Of a stretch of 34,845 nt of DNA, positions 11,334 through 24,600 are shown in pieces. Made by a program: the position numbers and the translations under genes. Source of the DNA: Akkermansia muciniphila (lineage in GTDB: Bacteria; Verrucomicrobiota; Verrucomicrobiia; Verrucomicrobiales; Akkermansiaceae); contig CAMCUY010000015.1 in assembly GCA_945879075.1 (NCBI GenBank), forward strand, positions 1 to 34,845, in the 5' to 3' direction. A model generated the notes under the pieces. That model saw only the letters and a program-made list of their open reading frames with translations. It did no database searches and had not been told where the DNA came from. Position 1 is the first letter of the stretch; each line of letters opens with the position of its first letter.

Positions 11334-12653
11334 ATGAATCTCCGCCGCCTTTACCCGTTGAATGGATTTCCGCAGCAGCGACAGTTGTGGTCGTGGATCT
11401 CGTTCGACGTGGCGAACCAGTCGTTCACGCTCATCATCAACACGCTGCTATTCTCGATCTTTTTCTCGCAGGTGGTCGTCCGGAACGACGCCATCGACGA
11501 CCGCGTGTGGGCGCTGACCTACGGCGGCAGCATGTTGCTCACCGCCATCCTGTCACCATTGGCCGGAGCGGCGGCGGACGGGCGCTGTTGGAAAAAGCGC
11601 TTCCTCGTCGGCTCCGGCCTGATGTGCGGGGTTTTCACCTGCGGGCTTGGCTTCATCCAGCCGGGACAAATCTGGCTGGCGGTCCTGCTCTACGTCCCGG
11701 CGAACTTCGCGTTCTCGATCGGTGAGAATTTCCTCGCGAGCTTCCTGCCGGGTCTGGCGAAACAAAGCGAAGTCGGGCGGGTGAGTGGTTTTTCCTGGGC
11801 CTGCGCCTATGCCGCCGCGCTGCTGTTACTGATCCTGACCGCCGGGGCGATGGTCGTGCTCAAGCTGGAGTCCGCCGACACGTGGCGGCCGTTTTTCGTC
11901 TTCGCCGGGCTGTGGTTCCTCGCCTTCACGATTCCGACGATGCTGTGGCTGCACGAGCCGCAAGTGCCGCGCGTCATCCATCCGGGAAGGAATTTACTCA
12001 CCGCCGGATTCGTGCGTCTGGCGGAAACGGTCCGGGAAACCGCGCGCTACCGCGATCTCGCGCTGCTGCTAATCGCGTCTCTATTCTACGGCACGGGCAT
12101 GAGCGTGGTGGTGTTCTTCGCGAGCAAGCTGGCGGTGGAATACGGCTTCCAACAGGTCGATCTGGTGGTCTTCGTGGCGGTGATTACGGTCTCCGGAATC
12201 ATCGGCACGATCATCCCCACGCTCTATCAGGACAAGCTCGGCCACCGGCGCTCGGTGCTGGTCTTTCTCATGATCTGGCTGGCGACGGCGCTGGGCTTCG
12301 CCTTTTACGCCTACCTTTACGACTCCCACGCGCGGAGCGGCGCGGTCGGCGGCTATCCGACCTGGCCGCTGTGGGTGATCGGGAATTTACTCGGCTTCGG
12401 GCTCGGCTCGCTGGGTTCCGCCAACCGCGCGTTCGTCAGCTACCTCGCCCCGCCTAACCGCGAGGCCGAGGTTTTCGGGATCTGGGGACTGATGTGGAAA
12501 TTGTCGGCCATCACCACCTTTCCCTTCGCCTGGGTGAAGGACACCATGGGAACCGCCCCGGCGCTACTGGTGCTCGCCGGCTTCATTTTTGCCGGGCTGG
12601 TCCTGACGCTGATGATCGACGAGCGCCGCGGCTTGGCGGCGCGGGAAAAATAG
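11334..12653 (+). CDS. MFS transporter, UMF1 / Atg22-like family
   Basis: A 439-residue polytopic membrane protein with about 12 hydrophobic segments. The beginning WSWISFDVANQSFTLII fits the UMF1 family (Atg22-like, PF11700), whose members start with a W..(Y/F)D.A...F motif. GGSMLLTAILSPLAGAAAD is the MFS loop-2 region after the second helix, and a second half starting near ALLLIASLFYGTGMS completes the fold. Eukaryotic Atg22 exports amino acids from the vacuole; bacterial substrates are mostly unknown. The gene heads a small plus-strand group with the membrane-protein ORF and ilvA, which would suit amino-acid transport, but that is only contextual. Confidence 0.85.
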   Translation: MNLRRLYPLNGFPQQRQLWSWISFDVANQSFTLIINTLLFSIFFSQVVVRNDAIDDRVWALTYGGSMLLTAILSPLAGAAADGRCWKKRFLVGSGLMCGVFTCGLGFIQPGQIWLAVLLYVPANFAFSIGENFLASFLPGLAKQSEVGRVSGFSWACAYAAALLLLILTAGAMVVLKLESADTWRPFFVFAGLWFLAFTIPTMLWLHEPQVPRVIHPGRNLLTAGFVRLAETVRETARYRDLALLLIASLFYGTGMSVVVFFASKLAVEYGFQQVDLVVFVAVITVSGIIGTIIPTLYQDKLGHRRSVLVFLMIWLATALGFAFYAYLYDSHARSGAVGGYPTWPLWVIGNLLGFGLGSLGSANRAFVSYLAPPNREAEVFGIWGLMWKLSAITTFPFAWVKDTMGTAPALLVLAGFIFAGLVLTLMIDERRGLAAREK

Positions 12654-12659
12654 TTCCGG

Positions 12660-12950
12660 GTGTTTTCCAAGAAACAAGGCGGCGGCTCCTTGTCGATCTA
12701 CCTGATCCTCCACCTCTTCCTGCTCGCCGGCGGCGTGATCTGGGTGTTCCTGGTCATTTCCATTCCCAACGAGGAACCGAAGGTGGATTTCACCACCCGC
12801 TCCGGCGACTCCTCCGCATCCGCGCTGCGGGAGACCTGGCAACGCGCGCAAATGATCCGGCCGAACCTCTCCCGGATCAACGCCCGCGGGCGCGCCGGGC
12901 TCGTGAGTTGCCTTGCAGAAGCGCGGGTTCCGGTCAACGCTGCGGCATGA
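12660..12950 (+). CDS. Small single-pass membrane protein, unknown
   Basis: A 96-residue ORF starting with GTG at 12660, seven bases after the transporter stop. It has a charged N terminus (FSKKQGG), one hydrophobic segment (about residues 12-33, LILHLFLLAGGVIWVFLV) and a polar C-terminal half. No family is recognised. Its stop overlaps the ilvA start as ATGA (12947-12950), the arrangement expected for translational coupling, which supports it being a real gene. It may belong to the transporter or simply bridge the two genes. No Shine-Dalgarno is seen. Confidence 0.5.
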   Translation: MFSKKQGGGSLSIYLILHLFLLAGGVIWVFLVISIPNEEPKVDFTTRSGDSSASALRETWQRAQMIRPNLSRINARGRAGLVSCLAEARVPVNAAA

Positions 12951-14494
12951 ATCGTGACGATCTGCCGCTGGACCGGCAATTGCGCCAGGAAATCCTCTTC
13001 GCTCGCGAACGGGTGTATCGCTTCGGCAAACCGACGCCGCTGGAGCGCCTCGAACTACCCGGGCCCGGACCGGAAATCTGGGTGAAGCGCGAGGATCTAT
13101 CCGCCGTGAAATCCTACAAATGGCGCGGCGCGTGCAACCGGATGGCGATGCTCACTCCGGCGGAAGCCGCGCGCGGAGTGGTGACCGCCTCGGCCGGAAA
13201 CCACGCGCAGGGAGTCGCTCTCGCCGCCCGCACACTCGGCATCCAAGCGCGGATCTACATGCCGCGCTCGACGCCGAAGGTGAAACAAAACGCCGTGCGT
13301 CATCATGGCGGCGGGTTCGTGGAAATTCATCTGGCAGGCGACAGTTACGACGAGGCCGTTTCGGCCGCACGCGCGGATGAAGCTGCCAGCGGCGCGGTTT
13401 ATGTGCACGCCTATGACGACATCAAGGTGATGGCCGGCCAGGGCACGCTGGCGGACGAGGTGGTGCTGTCAGGACATGGCCCGTTCGATGCCGCCTACCT
13501 GCAAATCGGCGGCGGCGGGCTGGCAGCCGGCGTTTCCACCTGGCTGACGACTTACTGGCCGGGCATCGAGATCGTCGGCGTGGAGGGCATGGGGCAGGCG
13601 TCGATGAAGGCCGCGCTCGCCGCGGGCCAGCCGGTGGCGCTCGATGACGTGGATTTGTTCTGCGACGGCACGGCGGTTAGGAAAGCGGGCGAGCTGCCGT
13701 TTCAAATCTGCCAGCACACGCTGTCGCGGATCGAAACGGTGACGAACGCCGAGGTCAGCGACGCCATCCGCACGCTGTGGGAAGGCCTGCGCTGCATTTC
13801 CGAGCCGTCCGGCGCGATGGGGCTGGCGGCGGTTTTAAAAAACCGCGAGGCGCTCGCTGGCAAGCGCGTTCTGGTCGTGCTCTGCGGGGCGAACATCGAT
13901 TTCCTCCAGCTCGGACTCATCGCGCAATCGGTCGGAATGGGCAACAAGACCAGCCGCACCCTGCGCATCCGCATCCCGGAGCGCGCGGGAACGATGCTGG
14001 AGCTGCTAGACACCTGCTTCGAGGGCCTCGACATCGCGGATTTCCAATACGGCAAGACCGACGCGCTCGAAGCATGGCCGGCCTTCACCATCCACGCGGA
14101 CGATCCGGCGGCGCTCGACGCCCTGCCGGCGAAACTCGACGCTAACGGGTTCGCCTGGGAGGACCTCACCGGCGCGGTGGACATCACCTTCCGGGCAATC
14201 CCGCTGCGCGGCGACCTGTTGAAAAACACGGCCTTCCTGCGGCTGGATTTCTACGAGCGGCCGGGCGCACTGCACGATTTCCTCGACCGGCGTATCCGCG
14301 GCAACGCGAGTCTGTGTTATTTCAACTACCGTCAGTCCGGCGAGCGCATCGGCCGCGCCTTGATCGGCCTCGACTTCCCTTCCACTTACGAGCGGGACGC
14401 CTTGCTGATGACCATCCCGCGCCATGGCGAAGGCTACCGGCTCTGCGAGGCAGTCGACGAGGCGACGCGACAAAGGCTCGTGGGACGGCATTGA
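12947..14494 (+). CDS. ilvA: Threonine dehydratase (threonine deaminase), biosynthetic type
   Basis: PLP enzyme converting threonine to 2-oxobutanoate, the first step of isoleucine synthesis. Lys58 in [11 protein letters not shown] is the PLP lysine. SAGNHAQG (82-89) and the glycine-rich phosphate loop IGGGGLAAG are present, and [11 protein letters not shown] is the late active-site block. The C-terminal third (from about 335, with [22 protein letters not shown] and [17 protein letters not shown] as segments) forms two ACT-like regulatory domains, as in the isoleucine-inhibited long form. The length of 515 aa matches E. coli IlvA. The ATG at 12947 overlaps the previous ORF stop. The in-frame extension to 12494 is a shadow of the transporter. 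Confidence 0.93.
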
Positions 14495-14508: not shown

Positions 14509-14526
14509 TTGTGAAACTTTTCACAA
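14509..14526 (+). promoter_or_regulatory. Rex operator upstream of the nuo operon
   Basis: TTGTGAAACTTTTCACAA is a perfect match to the Rex consensus TTGTGAA-N4-TTCACAA and an 8-bp inverted repeat around a 2-bp centre. Rex is a repressor that leaves DNA when NADH is high. A fair promoter lies just downstream: TTGCCC (14534-14539), 17 bp, CATATT (14557-14562). In that layout the operator would sit upstream of -35. No rex gene is in the window. Confidence 0.75.
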
Positions 14527-14619
14527 AGCACGCTTGCCCGGTCCGCCCCGGATGGACATATTCCCGCCCGAACACCGCCAGGCTCTTCTTGCACAAGCGT
14601 CCGGCGCTCTTATTTAGCC

Positions 14620-16401
14620 ATGAGCGACACACCTTCGGCGACCGCGGAATTGAAATTACCCAAAGACCTGGCCGCTGAAAAAGGCCTGGTCAACGTCCAG
14701 ATTGACGGAGTTTGGCACCAATTTCCCAAAGGCACACGGATGATCGAGGCTTGCCGCCAGGCGCAAGTCATCGTCCCCCACTACTGTTACCACCCGAAGC
14801 TCAGCTCACCGGGAAATTGCCGGATGTGCCTCGTGCAAATGGGCATGCCGCCCCGCCCCGCCCCCGGCCAGGAGCCGCAGCGCGACGAGAACGGCTACGA
14901 GCCGATCGGCTGGATCCCCCGCCCCGTCATTGCCTGCGCCAACACCATCGGCGAAAACATGGGCATCCGCACCACCGGCGAGCTTGTCGAAAAGTGCCGC
15001 GAGGGCGTCATGGAATTCCTCCTCATCAATCACCCGCTCGACTGCCCGATTTGCGACCAAGCCGGCGAATGCCGCCTCCAGGAACAATCCGTCCAGCACG
15101 GCCGCGGCGTCTCGCGCTTCGTCGACATGAAGGTGAAAAAGCCGAAAAACGTCGAGATCGGCCCGCGCATCCGCCTCGACGACGAGCGCTGCATCATGTG
15201 CAGCCGCTGCATCCGCTTCATGGACGAAGTCGCCGGCGACCCGGTGCTCGGCTTCACCCAGCGCGGCACCCACACCACCCTCACCGTCCACCCGGACCGC
15301 CTGCTCGACTCGAACTACTCGCTCAACACCGCCGATATCTGCCCAGTCGGAGCACTGACATCCAACGACTTCCGCTTCCAAATGCGCGTTTGGTTCCTCA
15401 AGGAAACCCCGAGCATCGACGTGAATTGCGGCACCGGCACCAACATCACGATCTGGACCCGGGAAAACAAAATCCACCGCATCACCCCGCGCCTCAACGA
15501 CGAGGTGAACTCCGCCTGGATGCCCGATTCCCACCGCCTGAATTTCCACCATATCAACAGCGAGGCCCGCCTCACCGAGCCGCTCGAAAAGGGCACAGGC
15601 ATCTTGCCTGTTTCTTCTGTTCCATCGTTTTACTCCACCACCTGGCCCTCCGCCATCACCTCCGCCGCCTCAAGAATCAAGTCCATCCCCGCCGCCCAAA
15701 CCGCCATCATCGCCTCCGGCCGCATGACCAACGAGGAACTCTTCCTCGCCCGCGCGCTCGCTGCGGAAATCGGCACCAGCCAGCTCTCGCTCGTGCCCCG
15801 TTTCGGCGAGGCCGACGCCCTGCTCATCGCCGCCGACCGCAACCCGAACACCACCGGCGCCAAGCTCATTCTCGGAAACGAAGACCCCTTCGCCAATCTT
15901 AGCTCCATCCGCGACGGCGTCCGCAACGGCTCGATCAAATCCCTCATCGTCTTCGGCGAAGACCTCATCACCGACGCCGGCTTCACCGCCGAAGACCTCG
16001 GAAAACTCGATTTCCTCCTTCAAACCAGCGTGCTCGCCAACCCCACCGCCGAGCAAGCGCACCTCGTCCTGCCCTCCGCCGCCTTCGCCGAAAAGCGCGG
16101 CTCCATGGTCAATCTCACCGGCCGCCTCCAACGCCTCAACCGCGCCGTCGAGCCCCAAAGCCAAGCGCACGACGATTGGGAAATCCTCCGCGACCTGCTT
16201 CTGGCCATCTCCAGCGACACCAACCAGATCCACCACATCGAGGACGTCTTCAAAGTGCTCGCGGAAAACGTCGCCGCCTTCAACGGCCTCACACTTTCAA
16301 AAATCGGCCATCAAGGCACGCCAATCGCTGACACCGGCTATCAGATCCCGCTCCTCGCCAACGAGCGCGCCCGCAAGGCGGCGGGACTGATTAACGGCTA
16401 A
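14620..16401 (+). CDS. nuoG: NADH-quinone oxidoreductase subunit G
   Basis: Peripheral-arm iron-sulfur subunit of complex I. The N-terminal 2Fe-2S domain has Cys56, Cys67 and Cys70 (SPGNCRMC) plus a later cysteine in VIACAN. The HxxxCxxC cluster block is HPLDCPICDQAGEC, and the ferredoxin-like block is CIMCSRCIRF with CPVGAL. A reduced molybdopterin-oxidoreductase-like domain follows. At 593 aa it is much shorter than E. coli NuoG (about 900), as in many bacteria with a short C-terminal domain. Residues 325-331 read GTGILPV, encoded by a palindromic repeat inserted in frame between the two halves. It is the first gene of the nuo cluster here and lies behind the Rex operator. Confidence 0.95.
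   Translation: MSDTPSATAELKLPKDLAAEKGLVNVQIDGVWHQFPKGTRMIEACRQAQVIVPHYCYHPKLSSPGNCRMCLVQMGMPPRPAPGQEPQRDENGYEPIGWIPRPVIACANTIGENMGIRTTGELVEKCREGVMEFLLINHPLDCPICDQAGECRLQEQSVQHGRGVSRFVDMKVKKPKNVEIGPRIRLDDERCIMCSRCIRFMDEVAGDPVLGFTQRGTHTTLTVHPDRLLDSNYSLNTADICPVGALTSNDFRFQMRVWFLKETPSIDVNCGTGTNITIWTRENKIHRITPRLNDEVNSAWMPDSHRLNFHHINSEARLTEPLEKGTGILPVSSVPSFYSTTWPSAITSAASRIKSIPAAQTAIIASGRMTNEELFLARALAAEIGTSQLSLVPRFGEADALLIAADRNPNTTGAKLILGNEDPFANLSSIRDGVRNGSIKSLIVFGEDLITDAGFTAEDLGKLDFLLQTSVLANPTAEQAHLVLPSAAFAEKRGSMVNLTGRLQRLNRAVEPQSQAHDDWEILRDLLLAISSDTNQIHHIEDVFKVLAENVAAFNGLTLSKIGHQGTPIADTGYQIPLLANERARKAAGLING
15594..15612. repeat. Intragenic palindromic repeat (GTGILPV type) in nuoG
   Basis: ACAGGCA-TCT-TGCCTGT (15595-15611) is a perfect 7-bp inverted repeat. 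It shares the 13-mer CAGGCAAGATGCC, on the opposite strand, with 28016-28028. It is in frame and codes for GTGILPV in a linker of NuoG. The repeat family appears widespread in Verrucomicrobia (recollection, not tested). Confidence 0.6.
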
Positions 16402-16430: not shown

Positions 16431-17687
16431 ATGCCGGAACTCATTTTTCAAATCGCCATCATCGTCGCGAAGATCGTCTTACTCACCTTCATGGTGGTCC
16501 TGCCGCTGGTGCCACTCTCCGTTTACTTCGAGCGGCGCTTCTCCGCCGTCATCCAGGACCGCGTCGGTCCTAACCGCGTCGGCATCCCGCTGACCTTGTT
16601 CGGATTCAAAAAGGACTTCCACCTCTTCGGCCTGGTCCAACCGATCGCCGACGGTTTGAAACTTTTCCTGAAGGAGGACTTTACTCCCGCCCACGTCCGC
16701 AAGGCGTTCTACTGGATGGCACCAGCGCTCACTGTCGTACCAGCGCTCATCACCGTTTGCGTCGTCCCCTTCGGCTCGCCGATCAGTATCTTCGGCCATA
16801 CCGAAAAACTCGTCATCGCGGACCTCGACATCGGACCTCTGTTCGTCTTTTCCGTCGCTTCCCTGTCTGTCTATGGCATCACCCTCGCCGGTTGGTCTTC
16901 CAATTCAAAATTCCCCTTCATTGGCGGCGTGCGCTCCACCGCACAGATGATCTCCTATGAAATCGCCCTCGGTCTTTCGATCATCCCGGTGCTGATGTAT
17001 TACGGCGACCTCAACCTCAGCACCATCGTCCAACAGCAAGCCGACCACGGCTGGCTGCTGCTCCCGCTCTGGGGGCACGACGCGGACCACACCTTCATCA
17101 GCAAACTGCTCTTCTGGTTCCCCGCCGCCATTGCTTTCCTGATCTTCACCATCTCCATCTTCGCGGAAACCAACCGTATGCCCTTCGATCTTCCCGAGTG
17201 CGAAACCGAACTCGTTGGCGGCTATCACACCGAATATTCGTCGATGAAATTCGCGATGTTCTTCATGGGCGAATATGCCGCGATGGTCATCGGCTCGGCG
17301 CTCATCATCACCCTCTTTCTCGGCGGCTGGTCGATCGGCTTCGGCCTCGACGCAATGGTCGCCAAGCTCCACATCGGCGACTTCTATTTCGGCGGACTCG
17401 TCCACCTCGGTTGCTTCATGACCAAGCTCATCGGCTTCATCCTCTTCTTCATCCTCGTCCGCTGGACCGTGCCGCGGTTCCGTTATGACCAGCTCATGAA
17501 ACTCGGCTGGGTCGTGTTCTTCGAAGCCGCGCTCATCAACGTCTTCCTCGCCGCGCTCATCGTCGCCGCACCCCAGCTCGAAAAAACCATCATCGGCGTC
17601 GGTGCCGTCCTGCTCGTCATTGTCACCGCAGCGGTGATCTGGGTCGCCAAGGTTTCCGAGGAGACCCCGAAAGTTCTCCGTGCCTGA
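16431..17687 (+). CDS. nuoH: NADH-quinone oxidoreductase subunit H
   Basis: Membrane-arm subunit that forms the quinone-binding chamber at the junction with the peripheral arm. It has eight or more hydrophobic segments. Family signatures are RVGPNRVGIP (about residues 43-52) and the acidic loop AETNRMPFDLPE followed by ETELVGGYHTEY and MKFAMFFMGEY. It is 418 aa, longer than E. coli NuoH (325), partly through extra hydrophobic segments at the C-terminal end. The ATG follows nuoG by 29 bp; no Shine-Dalgarno is present. Confidence 0.95.
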   Translation: MPELIFQIAIIVAKIVLLTFMVVLPLVPLSVYFERRFSAVIQDRVGPNRVGIPLTLFGFKKDFHLFGLVQPIADGLKLFLKEDFTPAHVRKAFYWMAPALTVVPALITVCVVPFGSPISIFGHTEKLVIADLDIGPLFVFSVASLSVYGITLAGWSSNSKFPFIGGVRSTAQMISYEIALGLSIIPVLMYYGDLNLSTIVQQQADHGWLLLPLWGHDADHTFISKLLFWFPAAIAFLIFTISIFAETNRMPFDLPECETELVGGYHTEYSSMKFAMFFMGEYAAMVIGSALIITLFLGGWSIGFGLDAMVAKLHIGDFYFGGLVHLGCFMTKLIGFILFFILVRWTVPRFRYDQLMKLGWVVFFEAALINVFLAALIVAAPQLEKTIIGVGAVLLVIVTAAVIWVAKVSEETPKVLRA

Positions 17688-17713: not shown

Positions 17714-18280
17714 ATGGCCGTCATTAAACTCCAGCGCCCGAAACTCAATTTCGGCGAGAAAATCTACTTCGGAGCCCTCCTCAAGGGGTTCTTCCTCACC
17801 ATGACCCACGCGGTGAAAACACTGCGCGGCAAATCCGTCGGAGCCGCAGAACTCGCTTCCTCCGGCCTCGGCGTGACCATGCAGTTCCCCGAACAACGCT
17901 GGGACGAGCATCTGCCCGAATACTACCGCGGCGCGCCCACCCTCGTCACCGACGAACAAGGCCGCGAACGCTGCGTTTCCTGCCAACTCTGCGAATTCAT
18001 CTGCCCGCCCAAGGCGATCAAGATCAAGCCAAGCGAAATCCCGTCGGACGATCCGTGGGCCAAGGTGGAAAAGCGCCCGCTGGAATTCGACATCGACATG
18101 ATCCGCTGCATCTATTGCGGCATGTGCGAGGAAGTCTGCCCCGAGCAGGCCATCTATCTGCGCAAGGACTACCTCATCACCGGCCTCAAGCGCGCCGACA
18201 TGGTTCACGACAAAAAGAAGCTCTACGAAATCGGCGGCACCCGCGTCGGCCTCGTCAACAAGTGGAACGAACTGAAGTAA
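17714..18280 (+). CDS. nuoI: NADH-quinone oxidoreductase subunit I
   Basis: Ferredoxin-like subunit carrying the two 4Fe-4S clusters (N6a and N6b) that pass electrons towards N2 and quinone. The first cluster motif CVSCQLCEFICP uses Cys87, 90, 93 and 97; the second, CIYCGMCEEVCP, uses Cys132, 135, 138 and 142. At 188 aa it is a normal length. It sits in the conserved H-I-J order, 26 bp after nuoH. Confidence 0.95.
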   Translation: MAVIKLQRPKLNFGEKIYFGALLKGFFLTMTHAVKTLRGKSVGAAELASSGLGVTMQFPEQRWDEHLPEYYRGAPTLVTDEQGRERCVSCQLCEFICPPKAIKIKPSEIPSDDPWAKVEKRPLEFDIDMIRCIYCGMCEEVCPEQAIYLRKDYLITGLKRADMVHDKKKLYEIGGTRVGLVNKWNELK

Positions 18281-18299: not shown

Positions 18300-18863
18300 A
18301 TGCCTTCTTATCTTTTCTGGCTCTTTTCCACCGTGATGCTCATCGGCGGGGTCTCCGTGATCGCCTTCCGCAATCCGGTTTCCAGCGCGCTCTCGGTCGT
18401 CACCTGCTTCGTCGGCCTCGCCGGTCTGTTCATCGGCCTCAGCGCCTTCTTTGTCGGCGTCATCCAAATCCTCGTCTATACCGGCGCGGTGATGGTGTTG
18501 TTCCTCTTCATCATCATGCTGCTCGACCTCAAGGATGAGGAAAAAGTCGCCAAGCCCCTGCTCCCCATCGCCGCCGGTATCGGACTTGTCGCAGCCTTCA
18601 CCGTGCAACTCATCGGGGTGCTCTCCCGCACGCCCAACGTGATCGCCCCGGTCATCGACAAGGACCGCCTGGCCGCCGCCGCCAGCGGCTTTCCCGCCAC
18701 CAGCAAGATCGCCATCTCCCTCGGCCAGGGAAAGCTCCCCGACGTCCACCTCATCGGCCAAACGCTTTTCACCGACTTCAATCTCCCGCTCCAGATCCTC
18801 GGCGTCCTGCTGCTCGTCGCCACCATCGGCGTCGTCGTCCTCTCCAAGCGTCAGGCGGACTAA
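18300..18863 (+). CDS. nuoJ: NADH-quinone oxidoreductase subunit J
   Basis: Small membrane-arm subunit (187 aa) with five predicted hydrophobic segments. The segment with GLFIGLSAFFVGVIQILVY and the adjacent TGAVMVLFLFIIMLL is the conserved third helix region of NuoJ, which contains a pi-bulge in known structures. The C-terminal helix (LGVLLLVATIGVVVLSKRQ) is typical. Its position between nuoI and nuoK confirms the assignment. Confidence 0.93.
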   Translation: MPSYLFWLFSTVMLIGGVSVIAFRNPVSSALSVVTCFVGLAGLFIGLSAFFVGVIQILVYTGAVMVLFLFIIMLLDLKDEEKVAKPLLPIAAGIGLVAAFTVQLIGVLSRTPNVIAPVIDKDRLAAAASGFPATSKIAISLGQGKLPDVHLIGQTLFTDFNLPLQILGVLLLVATIGVVVLSKRQAD

Positions 18864-18875
18864 CCATTATTTCTC

Positions 18876-19196
18876 ATGGCTACTTTAAACGACTACCTGC
18901 TCGTCTCCGGACTCCTTTTCGCCATCGGCCTCGCGGGCGTGGTGCTGCGCCGGAACATCATCATCGTCTTCATGTGCCTCGAGCTCATGCTCAGCGCGGC
19001 AAACCTCACGCTGGTCGCGTTTTCCCGCTTCCACGTCTCGTCCAACGGCCTACCCGACTACAACGGCCAGATGCTCGTCTTCTTCGTCATCACCGTCGCC
19101 GCCGCGGAAGTCGCCGTCGGCCTCGCGATTATCGTCGCCCTCTACCGCGCCCGCCAGACCATCCACACGGATGAGCTGACCAGCTTGAAAGGCTGA
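18876..19196 (+). CDS. nuoK: NADH-quinone oxidoreductase subunit K
   Basis: MrpC-like membrane subunit of complex I, 106 aa with three hydrophobic segments. Glu36 in [14 protein letters not shown] corresponds to the essential Glu36 of E. coli NuoK, and Glu78 in [11 protein letters not shown] to the second conserved membrane glutamate. It follows nuoJ by 12 bp. The normal next gene, nuoL, is displaced by about 590 bp because a GxxExxY cassette lies between. Confidence 0.95.
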
Positions 19197-19340: not shown

Positions 19341-19742
19341 ATGTCCTTCGACGCCACCCGATACCCCCACGCAGACCTCACCGAGAAAATCATCGGTGCG
19401 GCAATGGCGGTACATCGCGCACTCGGTCCAGGACTCGATGAGAAGATTTATGAAAACGCACTCGGTATAGAACTCACCGCGCAGTCTCTCTCATTCACCC
19501 AACAGCAACAGTTTCCCGTCTTTTATAGAGAACAGAGTGTGGGAAAACTCATCACCGATTTGATCGTCGGAGACAGAGTCATCATTGAAACCAAAGTCGC
19601 GACCGCCATCTGCGATATCCACATCGCCCAAACCCTGAGCTACCTCAGTATTTCCGGACTTCAGGTCGGCTTGATCCTGAATTTCAAGACCGCCTCTCTC
19701 ACCTTCAAACGGGTCGCCAACATCTATCTTAAAAATCAGTAA
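19341..19742 (+). CDS. GxxExxY family protein
   Basis: A 133-residue protein with the family signature GLDEKIY (residues 31-37, GxxExxY), preceded by AAMAVHRALGPG. A PDDEXK-nuclease-like core follows: Asp in LITDLIVGD and E-x-K in VIIETKV (about 70-85). The family is common in Verrucomicrobia, Planctomycetes and Bacteroidetes; its biochemical function is unproven and a nuclease-like fold is inferred. It interrupts the nuoK-nuoL order in the same orientation. Its last codons and stop (AAT CAG TAA) lie inside the downstream direct repeat, so gene and repeat form one cassette. Base composition is more AT-rich than in the nuo genes, a sign of transfer. Confidence 0.9.
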   Translation: MSFDATRYPHADLTEKIIGAAMAVHRALGPGLDEKIYENALGIELTAQSLSFTQQQQFPVFYREQSVGKLITDLIVGDRVIIETKVATAICDIHIAQTLSYLSISGLQVGLILNFKTASLTFKRVANIYLKNQ

Positions 19743-19787: not shown

Positions 19788-21602
19788 ATGAATCTCGCCT
19801 GGATCCTCCTCTTCCTCCCGCTCGTCGTAGCCGCGGCGAACCAACTCGTCCTGAAAAAAACCGGACTTGCGCCGATCATCTCGGTGGCCTCCGCGCTGGC
19901 CACCTTCGTGATCGCCGTGCTGTTGCTGGGAATAAATGAAACCGCCTATTTCGCCTGGGCGACGATCGGGGACTTCTCCATCAACATCGGCATCAAACTC
20001 GACCAGCTTTCAACCGGCATGATGATCGTCGTCACCGGCGTCGGCCTGCTGGTGCATGTTTTCTCGCTAGCCTACATGAAGGACGACGCCGCCAAGGCCC
20101 GCTACTTCACCGGCTTGTCGCTTTTCATGTTCTCGATGACCGGCATCGTGCTAGCGGACAACTTCATCATGACCTTTATCTTCTGGGAGTTGGTCGGACT
20201 GAGTTCCTATCTGCTCATCGGCCACTGGTATCAAAAGGACTCCGCCGCAGACGCAGCAAAGAAGGCGTTCCTTTGCAACCGCATCGGCGACTTCGGCTTC
20301 ATGGTCGGCATCCTCATGCTGTGGGGCATCACCGGTCACCTCGCGTTCGACCAAATGAAGGACGGCCTCGAACTTTTCCAAAAGGCCAATCCCGCGATCT
20401 TCGGCGGCGTGCTCTCCGCCGCCGTGCTCTGCATCTTCTGCGGTGCTGTTGGAAAATCCGCCCAGCTTCCGCTCCACGTCTGGCTGCCCGACGCGATGGA
20501 AGGCCCGACGCCCGTTTCCGCGCTGATCCACGCCGCCACCATGGTCGCCGCCGGCGTTTACATGCTGTTCCGCCTGCAATTCACGCTCGGCTTCGAAGTC
20601 TTCGAAGGCCTGCAAGCCAGCGCCGTCATCGCGTGGACCGGCGGCATCACCGCCCTCGTCGCCGCGCTAATGGCCACTCAACAGGACGACATCAAGCGCG
20701 TGCTCGCGTACTCCACTCTCTCCCAACTCGGCTACATGGTCATGGCCGTCGGCCTCGTGTCCGGCGAGGCGGGAATGTTCCACCTCTTCACCCACGCCTG
20801 GTTCAAGGCCCTCCTCTTCCTCGGCTCCGGCGCGGTCATCTTCGCCTGCCATCACGAGCAGGACATCTGGAAAATGGGCGGCCTGCTCAAGAAAATGCCG
20901 ATCACCGGATTCACCTTCCTCATCGGATTCGCCGCGCTCATCGCCGTTCCCTTCACCTCGGGATTCTTCTCCAAGGAACAAATCCTTGAAGCCGCCCACG
21001 AAAAGGAACCCATCCTTTTCTGGATCGCTGCCGCCGTCGCGGTGCTCACCCCGTTTTACATGACCCGCCTCTACGTCGTCGCATTCCTCGGAAAAAACCG
21101 TTCCGAAAACGCCTCGCACGCCCATGAGGTCGGCCCGCTGATGTCCGGTCCACTCGTGCTTCTCGCCACCCTCGGCGTGATCGCCGGCTTCCCATTCATC
21201 GCTAGCAAATTCGCCCCAGCCTATCACCAGCCGGAGCATCTCATCCACCTCGGCTTCGTCACCTACGTCTCCATCGGCGCGCTGCTCACCGGGGTCATCG
21301 CCGGATTCGTGCTCTACGCCGGCAAGGAAAAAGACCCGGTCTCCATCCCGCTCCTCCAGAACCGCTTCTACATCGACGGCCTCTACGACAATTTCCTCGT
21401 CCGTTATTTCCAGGACGCCTTCGCCGCGATCATCGCCTTCTTCGACGAGTTCGTCATCAACGGCCTCATTGTCGGCGGCCTCAGCCGCGCCGCCGAATCC
21501 TTCGGCAATATTTTCCGCAAAGTCCAGTCCGGCAGCCTCCAAGGCTACGCATTCGCCTTCGGCCTCGGCGTGATCCTCGTCGTCTATTTCACCGCTTTCT
21601 GA
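19788..21602 (+). CDS. nuoL: NADH-quinone oxidoreductase subunit L
   Basis: Antiporter-like distal membrane subunit that takes part in proton pumping. Glu134 in FIFWELVGLSSYLLIG and Lys223 in GAVGKSAQLPLHVWLPDAM are the key charged residues of the channel. GPTPVSALIHAATMVAAGVY carries the conserved histidine at about 248. At 604 aa it matches the family, including the long C-terminal amphipathic helix region that runs along the membrane arm. The ATG at 19788 has no Shine-Dalgarno. Confidence 0.95.
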   Translation: MNLAWILLFLPLVVAAANQLVLKKTGLAPIISVASALATFVIAVLLLGINETAYFAWATIGDFSINIGIKLDQLSTGMMIVVTGVGLLVHVFSLAYMKDDAAKARYFTGLSLFMFSMTGIVLADNFIMTFIFWELVGLSSYLLIGHWYQKDSAADAAKKAFLCNRIGDFGFMVGILMLWGITGHLAFDQMKDGLELFQKANPAIFGGVLSAAVLCIFCGAVGKSAQLPLHVWLPDAMEGPTPVSALIHAATMVAAGVYMLFRLQFTLGFEVFEGLQASAVIAWTGGITALVAALMATQQDDIKRVLAYSTLSQLGYMVMAVGLVSGEAGMFHLFTHAWFKALLFLGSGAVIFACHHEQDIWKMGGLLKKMPITGFTFLIGFAALIAVPFTSGFFSKEQILEAAHEKEPILFWIAAAVAVLTPFYMTRLYVVAFLGKNRSENASHAHEVGPLMSGPLVLLATLGVIAGFPFIASKFAPAYHQPEHLIHLGFVTYVSIGALLTGVIAGFVLYAGKEKDPVSIPLLQNRFYIDGLYDNFLVRYFQDAFAAIIAFFDEFVINGLIVGGLSRAAESFGNIFRKVQSGSLQGYAFAFGLGVILVVYFTAF

Positions 21603-21635: not shown

Positions 21636-23093
21636 ATGCTCGCACTCCTCGTCTTTCTTCCGATCGCCGCCTTCGTCGCGATCCTCTTCGGCGCGCCAGC
21701 CCGGCTCACCGCCATCGCCGCCTCCACGCTCAATCTCGCGCTCGGCATCTACGCCGCGTTCACCTGGCAGAATGACTGCTGGTCATTCTCCGTGCCCGTT
21801 CTTGAAAAGCCCGCGCTCAACCTCGCCTTCGGCTTCATCGACGGCATGAGCGTCATCATGGTGCTGCTTTCCGTGATCGTCACCCTCGCCGCCGTGCTCT
21901 CCGGCAAGGCTCCTGAAGGCAGGGAAAAACTCTACTACGGCTCATCGCTGCTCATCTCCGGTGGTGCGCTCGGTGCCTTCGCCGCGACCGACATGTTCTT
22001 CTTCTTCGCGTTCCACGAACTCGCCCTCATCCCCACTTTCCTGATGATCGGCATCCTGGGCCGGGGCGACCGTCGCGCTGCGGCTTGGAAAATCACCATC
22101 TATCTGGGCCTCGGCTCCATGGTCCTGCTCGCAGGCCTGGTCTGGCTCGCTAATCTCGCCGGCTCTTACGACATGGGCCGGATTCTAGCATGGGCTTCGC
22201 TAGGTGGTAAGCCAATGATCGATCCCGCCTCGCAGAAGGGCATCGCCGCGCTGCTCATCGTCGGCTTCGGCACGCTCGTTTCGCTCTTCCCGTTCCACTC
22301 GTGGGCCGCTCCGGCCTACGCCAGCGCGCCCGCTCCGGTCGCCATGTTGCATGCCGGCGTTTTGAAAAAATTCGGCCTCTATGGACTGCTCCGCCTCGCC
22401 ATCCCGCTCGTCCCCGAGGGCCTGCAATTCTGGCTCACTCCCCTGCTCGTCCTGCTGCTCGGCAACATCCTGTGGGTCGGCTGGGTCACCATCTCCCAGA
22501 AGCGCCTCGACCTGATGTTAGGCAACTCCTCAGTCATGCACATGGGCTACATCTTCCTCGCCATCGCCGCGCTCATCGCCTTCCCGGAAAACCCGCTCGC
22601 CCGTTCCGCCGCCATCGTCCTGATGTTCGCCCACGGCATTTCCATCGCCCTGCTCTTCGGCCTCGCCGACCGCATCGAGCGCAACACCGGCTCACTCGAC
22701 CTCCAGGACCTCGGCGGCCTCGCCAAATCCGCGCCCGGCCTCGCGTTCCTGTTTGGCATCGCCGCCATGGCCTCCATCGGACTTCCCGGCCTCGCCAACT
22801 TCTCCGGTGAAATCCTCGTCTTCCTCGCCGCCTTCAAGAGCTACAACGGCAGCACCGGCCTCGGTCCCGTCCAGATCGCCTGCATCTTCTCGATCTGGGG
22901 CGTGGTCATCTCCGCCGTTTACATGCTCCGCGCCTATCGGAACATCTTCCAGGGCCCGGCCGTGAAAGCCACCGAATCCGCCGCCGATCTCACTCTGGCG
23001 GACCGCATTCCGGCCACGCTGCTGGTTCTCGCGCTCTTCGCCGTCGGTCTCTATCCGAACCTTCTGCTCAATCTTCTGATACAAGTCCCATAG
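21636..23093 (+). CDS. nuoM: NADH-quinone oxidoreductase subunit M
   Basis: Second antiporter-like membrane subunit of complex I (485 aa, about 14 hydrophobic segments). Glu128 in FFFAFHELALIPTFLMIG is the conserved channel glutamate. The mid-membrane block FPFHSWAAPAYASAPAPVAM corresponds to the LP(T/L)H.W..DA region of canonical NuoM, here altered to HSWAAPAYASAP. The distal block GLPGLANFSGEILVFLAAF is typical. Its position between nuoL and nuoN is as expected. Confidence 0.93.
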   Translation: MLALLVFLPIAAFVAILFGAPARLTAIAASTLNLALGIYAAFTWQNDCWSFSVPVLEKPALNLAFGFIDGMSVIMVLLSVIVTLAAVLSGKAPEGREKLYYGSSLLISGGALGAFAATDMFFFFAFHELALIPTFLMIGILGRGDRRAAAWKITIYLGLGSMVLLAGLVWLANLAGSYDMGRILAWASLGGKPMIDPASQKGIAALLIVGFGTLVSLFPFHSWAAPAYASAPAPVAMLHAGVLKKFGLYGLLRLAIPLVPEGLQFWLTPLLVLLLGNILWVGWVTISQKRLDLMLGNSSVMHMGYIFLAIAALIAFPENPLARSAAIVLMFAHGISIALLFGLADRIERNTGSLDLQDLGGLAKSAPGLAFLFGIAAMASIGLPGLANFSGEILVFLAAFKSYNGSTGLGPVQIACIFSIWGVVISAVYMLRAYRNIFQGPAVKATESAADLTLADRIPATLLVLALFAVGLYPNLLLNLLIQVP

Positions 23094-23130: not shown

Positions 23131-24600
23131 ATGCCCGCCTACTATTTAGAAGCCCTCACCGTCACCCTCGGCATCGTCCTGCTCATGGCCGAGACCTTTT
23201 GCTCGTGCAAAAGCAAAGCCTGGGTCGGCCTCTCCGCCACCATCGGTCTGGTGGTCATCCTCGGGCTTACCTGCATTACCATCGGACCTGACGCGAAGCC
23301 AGACGCCGCCTGGGCCAAGTGGCCGCTGTGGAACTTCTACAACTTCGATTCCCTCGCGAAATTCTATAAAATCTTCGCTCTCGTCACTACCATCCTCGTC
23401 CTGCTGCTCGCCGTCGATTACCGGAAAATCCTCTCCCGCTTCACCGAAACTCCCGACTCCGAATCCGGCACCGGTGAATTCTACTGCCTCCCCGTCTTCG
23501 CCTGCGCCGGCATGATGTGGCTCGCCTCCGCCAAGGACCTCGCCGGAGCCTTCGTCGCCCTCGAACTCGTTACCGTCACCTTCTACATCCTCGTCGCCTA
23601 CATGCGCCGCAACGTCGGCTCGCTCGAAGCCGGCGTGAAATACCTCATCCTCGGCGCACTCAGCACCGGCTTTCTGGTTTACGGCATCGCCTGGGTTTAC
23701 GGTTCCACCGGCACCATGAGCCTCGCGGAAATGCCCGAGCGCCTGACTCACATCACCAACACCACCCCACTTCTCTTCGGCATCGCCCTCGTCATGGTCG
23801 GCCTCGGTTTCAAGATCGGCGCAGTCCCCATGCAAGTCTGGATTCCCGATGTCTATCAAGGCGCGCCCACTCCCGTCACCGCCTTCCTCTCCGTCGGCTC
23901 GAAAGCCGCCGGCTTCGTCCTCACCATCCGTTTCCTCGAGCCCTTCCTCGCCAGCGAACTCACCCGCGGCCCGGTCCTCACGCTGCTGCTCATCCTCGCC
24001 TGCGCCACCCTGCTGTTCGGAAATCTCGCCGCCATCCCGCAGACCAACTTCAAACGCCTGCTCGCATACTCCTCCATCGCGCACGCCGGATTCCTCCTCC
24101 TCGCCCTCGCCGCCTGGAAGCCGGAAACCGCCGTTTCCGAAGGTTCCGTCAAGGTCGTCTCCTTCTACCTCGCCACCTATCTGCTCATGACGCTCGGCGT
24201 CTTCTTCGCGCTCGCCCAAGTCCGCATTCAGCGCGACGGCGAAATGATCAACGATTTCAACGGCCTCGGAAAATCCAACCCTCAACTCGCCCTCGCTCTA
24301 ACCGTCTTGCTCGCCGCCCTCGCTGGCGTGCCGCTCACCGCCGGATTCCTCGGCAAGTTCCTCGTCTTCTCGCTCGCCGTCGAAGCCAAACTCTGGTGGG
24401 GCGTCGGCATCGCCCTCATCGCCGCAGCCGCCGGGTTCTACTACTACTTCAAGGTCATCCGCGCCATGTGGTGGAGCGACGCCGCCGATGCTAACGCCAT
24501 CGTCCTCCCTTGCATCAGCAAGCTCTGCATCGCCATGCTCACCATCGCCACGCTCGTCCTCGGCTTCTGGCCGCAGCCGATCTGGGCGCTGCTGAAATAA
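23131..24600 (+). CDS. nuoN: NADH-quinone oxidoreductase subunit N
   Basis: Third antiporter-like membrane subunit (489 aa). The channel glutamate is in FVALELVTVTFYILVAYM, and the central block is GFKIGAVPMQVWIPDVYQG followed by APTPVTAFLSVGSKAAGF. The late block AGVPLTAGFLGKFLVFSLAV is characteristic of NuoN. It is the last gene of the cluster. No T-rich terminator is visible on the plus strand directly after the stop, only the structured elements that appear to belong to the other strand. Confidence 0.95.
   Translation: MPAYYLEALTVTLGIVLLMAETFCSCKSKAWVGLSATIGLVVILGLTCITIGPDAKPDAAWAKWPLWNFYNFDSLAKFYKIFALVTTILVLLLAVDYRKILSRFTETPDSESGTGEFYCLPVFACAGMMWLASAKDLAGAFVALELVTVTFYILVAYMRRNVGSLEAGVKYLILGALSTGFLVYGIAWVYGSTGTMSLAEMPERLTHITNTTPLLFGIALVMVGLGFKIGAVPMQVWIPDVYQGAPTPVTAFLSVGSKAAGFVLTIRFLEPFLASELTRGPVLTLLLILACATLLFGNLAAIPQTNFKRLLAYSSIAHAGFLLLALAAWKPETAVSEGSVKVVSFYLATYLLMTLGVFFALAQVRIQRDGEMINDFNGLGKSNPQLALALTVLLAALAGVPLTAGFLGKFLVFSLAVEAKLWWGVGIALIAAAAGFYYYFKVIRAMWWSDAADANAIVLPCISKLCIAMLTIATLVLGFWPQPIWALLK

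Follow-up and report, generated by a model that had tools for sequence, protein, structure and literature searches.

The window, by which we mean the whole stretch of 34,845 nucleotides analyzed here, carries a complex I operon, nuoG-N, on its forward strand. An intergenic gap of 125 bp separates nuoG from the preceding threonine ammonia-lyase open reading frame (ORF; 12494 to 14494). This gap contains a palindrome that begins 15 bp past the stop codon of that ORF and lies 93 bp 5' of the nuoG ATG at 14620. The features of the locus are as follows:

14509 to 14526, no strand assigned: predicted Rex operator TTGTGAAACTTTTCACAA, with its center near -51.5 relative to the predicted transcription start
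14534 to 14539, forward strand: predicted -35 hexamer TTGCCC, 7 bp after the operator, at a position conserved also in Rex-negative genomes
14557 to 14562, forward strand: predicted -10 hexamer CATATT after a 17-bp spacer, transcription start predicted near 14569
14620 to 16401, forward strand: nuoG, complex I 75 kDa-type subunit, 593 aa (TIGR01973 NuoG, E=3e-133, narrowly missing the curated cut-off)
16431 to 17687, forward strand: nuoH, 418 aa (NF004743 NuoH, E=8e-108, not reaching the curated cut-off)
17714 to 18280, forward strand: putative nuoI, from ORF position, length, and gene order
18300 to 18863, forward strand: putative nuoJ, from sequence and order
18876 to 19196, forward strand: putative nuoK, from sequence and order
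19341 to 19742, forward strand: PDDEXK_3 (GxxExxY-type) gene within the nuo operon, not a complex I component (PF13366, E=1.5e-36)
19788 to 21602, forward strand: putative nuoL, from sequence and order
21636 to 23093, forward strand: putative nuoM, from sequence and order
23131 to 24600, forward strand: putative nuoN, from sequence and order

The palindrome is an 18-bp inverted repeat with no mismatch to TTGTGAAN4TTCACAA. All 14 fixed positions are paired, and the N4 core has one matching and one nonmatching pair. It is the sole match to this motif in the window, where the runner-up has three mismatches. The sequence-only reading of this DNA, which had described a palindrome fitting the Rex consensus at every fixed position directly upstream of the nuo operon, was thus accurate on each count. 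We regard it as all but certain that Rex, the sensor of the NADH/NAD+ ratio, binds this palindrome.

Two further observations concern the neighboring genes. Matches of the threonine ammonia-lyase ORF to its family profiles do not begin until about residue 162, so the true start of the ORF probably lies well downstream of the listed GTG. PDDEXK_3 genes recur in or next to complex I operons (also at L072 4414 to 4815, L099, L101, L124, L222, L225, L226, and L227), occupying the nuoK/nuoL gap in the window and the nuoD/nuoE gap on contig C57. They adjoin nuo genes in further families and orders as well, among compared loci that were mostly nuo loci.

Rex and its predicted sites in the genome

Profile and protein searches of the 2.39-Mb assembly found a single rex gene, the homologue that the sequence-only reading had proposed to look for. 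Its product clears the cut-off of the NCBIfam Rex equivalog (NF003992, 234.8 versus 226 bits) and combines an N-terminal winged helix (PF06971, E=3.3e-19) with a Rossmann domain (PF02629, E=9.4e-18). Alignment with solved Rex structures (PDB 2vt2, 5zz5, 3ikv, and 3ikt; E values down to 8.5e-44) matched this domain pair over its full length, with the GxGxxG nucleotide fold and the recognition segment of the winged helix both aligned. Compared with these structures, the ORF is about 36 residues longer at the N terminus, possibly owing to a wrongly assigned start. In Rex proteins, an Arg-Tyr-Asp triad couples NADH to the DNA-binding state; R16, Y98, and D188 of Thermus Rex, which we take to be the triad positions, align with R, Y, and D here. 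The gene is the last in a pyruvate-dehydrogenase-like E1-E2 cluster (L001 1036 to 1755; L292), so that an NADH sensor is encoded alongside an NADH-producing enzyme. Autoregulation was rejected, as none of the Rex loci examined has a perfect site 1.5 kb or less from rex.

In the assembly, TTGTGAA-N4-TTCACAA has exactly five perfect matches, and no site differs from it at a single position. The looser pattern TTGTGN8CACAA returned the same five and none besides, while a tolerance of up to two mismatches gave 10 sites, versus one for a backward-read control. The perfect sites precede nuoG-N (in the window), nuoBC (C12), nuoDE (C57), the alternative complex III (act) operon from actA (C59), and the ATP synthase operon from atpB (C6), each 34 to 94 bp 5' of a respiratory start codon. 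The search for further sites suggested by the sequence-only reading thus led, for every perfect site, to a respiratory operon. A chance origin was rejected, since five sites, all preceding respiratory genes, were found where about 0.0015 exact sites were expected (2.39 Mb; sampled GC content of about 61%). As judged from the sequence, the sites form a small, clean set over most of the respiratory chain, which we regard as the predicted Rex regulon.

Sites in relatives and in genomes without rex

Among 39 genomes of the order, 29 were Rex positive, and all 29 had 2 to 10 sites when one mismatch was allowed. The genes identified about 10 to 150 bp downstream of these sites were nuoG, nuoB, nuoD, nuoE, nuoF, nuoH, nuoJ, and nuoM, together with actA, an actE-like cytochrome gene, atpB, a type II ndh, and, in families f3 and f5, a polyprenyl synthase gene. 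Conservation before nuoG, on which the sequence-only reading had made its proposal depend, holds in Rex-positive relatives wherever nuoG begins its own transcription unit. If nuoG comes immediately after nuoF, it is nuoD that has the box in front of it; control therefore goes with the transcription unit and not with one gene. In genomes with a broken-up nuo operon, nuoF, nuoE, nuoH, nuoJ, or nuoM can carry a box of its own. The named nuoG loci bearing the site belong to Verrucomicrobiales-type metagenome-assembled genomes (MAGs).

The Rex boxes before polyprenyl synthase genes (L119, L141, and L157) come from three genera belonging to the two families f3 and f5, and possibly tie Rex to quinone tail synthesis. 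Two perfect boxes lack an obvious respiratory gene. One, at position 3001 of L166, is near an rpsL-like gene and shares its N4 core with a site of the relative G038; the other, at position 2713 of L148, has pgk on one side and a metH-like gene on the other. L136 and L132 look like a single site split across two contig ends.

Seven genus-mates that are 88 to 97% complete (G006, G007, G013, G015, G017, G018, and G022) have neither a site nor a rex gene detectable by profile or protein search. All seven retain nuoG and the pyruvate-dehydrogenase-type E2 gene, which adjoins rex in relatives and is now followed by other sequence. In their nuoG promoters, the -35 and -10 hexamers and the 7-bp gap are still in place. 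Decay has reduced the far operator arm to 0 to 4 of 7 letters, while the promoter-proximal arm retains 4 to 7 of 7 and the T tract is largely kept. Site and regulator were thus lost together from genomes that still have nuoG and the same promoter. The NuoG tree is compatible with a single rex loss (support 77/84; bootstrap range of 1 to 3 changes), and the losses may therefore be one event, so that the association between rex and its sites rests on few independent changes, not seven. Two exceptions, G005 and G028, each have five sites, and rex was not found in them. G005 also lacks the neighboring E2 gene, which suggests an assembly gap; G028, a fragmented MAG that is 83% complete, has E2 with no rex beside it. 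G019 (59% complete) has one imperfect site.

A survey of 145 genomes of the phylum gave 0 or 1 exact sites per genome outside the order, also in genomes with a Rex domain. A second genus from the family of the present organism, sampled with 15 genomes, has neither rex nor sites. A phylum-wide regulon was rejected on these grounds.

Predicted promoter architecture and probable mode of action

The sequence-only reading had placed the promoter downstream of the operator, and the comparison of sites agrees: -35-like TTG[AC]NN and -10-like hexamers follow the operator at a nearly fixed distance. Among 90 distinct nuo, atp, and ndh sites, TTGC begins 5 to 8 bases past the operator in 74, compared with a mean of 3.8 and a maximum of 11 in shuffled sequences. 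The offset is exactly 7 in 57 of these 74 and 5, 6, or 8 in the others. TTG[AC] occurs within 16 bases past the operator in 84 of the 90 sites, and a -10-like hexamer (at least 4 of 6 letters) peaks at a spacing of 16 to 18 bp (47/84, versus 0 to 11 at other spacings). Given the spacing conserved at 74 of 90 sites, the operators of nuo, atp, and ndh abut the predicted -35 and do not cover it. In the window, we infer a transcription start near 14569, which would place the operator center at about -51.5.

None of the 23 act sites has TTGC at that distance, and their operator lies 19 to 49 bp from the ATG. A weak -10-like profile suggests that here the operator overlaps the promoter, its own TTGTGA serving as the -35. 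The palindrome at act loci (L006 and others) is also extended, to GC-TTGTGAAN4TTCACAA-GC (87% each for the G and the C past the operator), in which these loci differ from nuo and atp. The earlier suggestion that the mode of action may differ from simple promoter blocking consequently stands for nuo, atp, and ndh, where the operator ends 5 to 8 bp before the predicted -35; at act, operator and promoter apparently overlap.

The palindrome is, with a probability of about 0.9 in our estimate, the operator of the cell's Rex repressor, through which nuoG-N would be held down at a low NADH/NAD+ ratio. Under these conditions, NADH-free Rex would bind the operator and limit nuoG-N transcription; as NADH accumulates, Rex would bind it and leave the DNA, allowing complex I to be made. 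Since nuoBC, nuoDE, act, and atp have this operator in front of them as well, NADH dehydrogenase, quinol oxidation, and ATP synthesis would be adjusted together. Repression at low NADH with release as NADH rises is most likely the sense of control, in view of the homology and of the Rex protein of Streptomyces avermitilis, whose binding to the same motif, TTGTGAANNNNTTCACAA, represses nuo, atp, ndh2, and cyd (PMC5355995). Simple blocking does not follow at nuo, since the operator leaves the core promoter uncovered. At nuo and atp, with the operator at about -60 to -43, Rex probably masks the upstream promoter region contacted by the alpha subunit, and its edge would also crowd sigma at the -35. 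At act, with the operator seemingly over the -35 and spacer, Rex would block polymerase directly.

A tentative extension, to which we give somewhat less than even odds, is that the box serves two uses: its proximal arm and T-rich core may act as an upstream promoter element for the alpha subunit, and Rex would mask this element without covering the -35 or -10. As complex I was split into separate transcription units in the order, its pieces would then have come to carry a ready-made operator-promoter module. The proximal arm kept by the rex-less relatives, beside their decayed far arm, is the observation that speaks for this idea.

That Rex binds and instead activates nuo and atp is unlikely, although a position near -51.5, upstream of the -35 and with constrained spacing, is one that a polymerase-touching protein might occupy. 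An activator bound at low NADH would turn on an NADH dehydrogenase when there is least to oxidize, the same boxes seem to overlap the promoter at act, and for these operons the effect of Rex in S. avermitilis is repression (PMC5355995).

A protein of the CRP/FNR family is a still poorer candidate for the reader of the site, and we consider it very improbable. The CRP site has the core TGTGA-N6-TCACA, which the palindrome contains as an exact match. However, the presence and absence of the site track rex and not merely the target genes, and every TTGTGN8CACAA match in the genome carries the Rex-type A7 and T12. Finally, that the palindrome arose by chance, or that it ends the threonine ammonia-lyase gene as an RNA hairpin, was rejected as having a negligible probability: a 7-bp stem is possible 15 bp after the stop codon, but no T run follows it, the upstream sequence varies freely among relatives while the operator and downstream promoter are kept, and a distribution of five perfect copies before respiratory genes contradicts both.

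Relation to known Rex regulons

The predicted regulon is closest to that of S. avermitilis, with which it shares the motif and the direct targets nuo, atp, and type II ndh (PMC5355995). The S. avermitilis nuoA1 and atpI operators, however, lie between the -35 and -10 and encompass the -35 (PMC5355995), whereas those at nuo and atp here stand just upstream of it. S. avermitilis nuo is named as one run, nuoA1-N1 (PMC5355995), while here the genes are in several pieces with a box on each. The S. avermitilis targets include rex-hem and cyd (PMC5355995); here they include alternative complex III, and rex itself has no nearby perfect site. Staphylococcus aureus Rex recognizes TTGTGAAW4TTCACAA (PMC2883068), and the sites described here also often have an A/T core, but its regulon concerns anaerobic gene expression (PMC2883068), while the targets here are respiratory-chain operons. 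In the open-licence literature, which offers partial coverage and does not prove priority, we found no description of a verrucomicrobial Rex regulon, in keeping with the sequence-only reading, and none of Rex control of alternative complex III. The kind of system is thus known; new are its occurrence in this lineage, alternative complex III as a target, the placement of the operator, and the boxes that broken nuo units have of their own.

For the Verrucomicrobiales, these results provide a predicted, testable redox regulon in which complex I, alternative complex III, and ATP synthase would respond jointly to NADH. The lineages without rex are natural knock-outs in which to study how such a regulon dissolves, and the nearly fixed operator position upstream of the -35 poses the question of how Rex represses. 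One control appears to have been maintained over complex I genes that are scattered round the genome.
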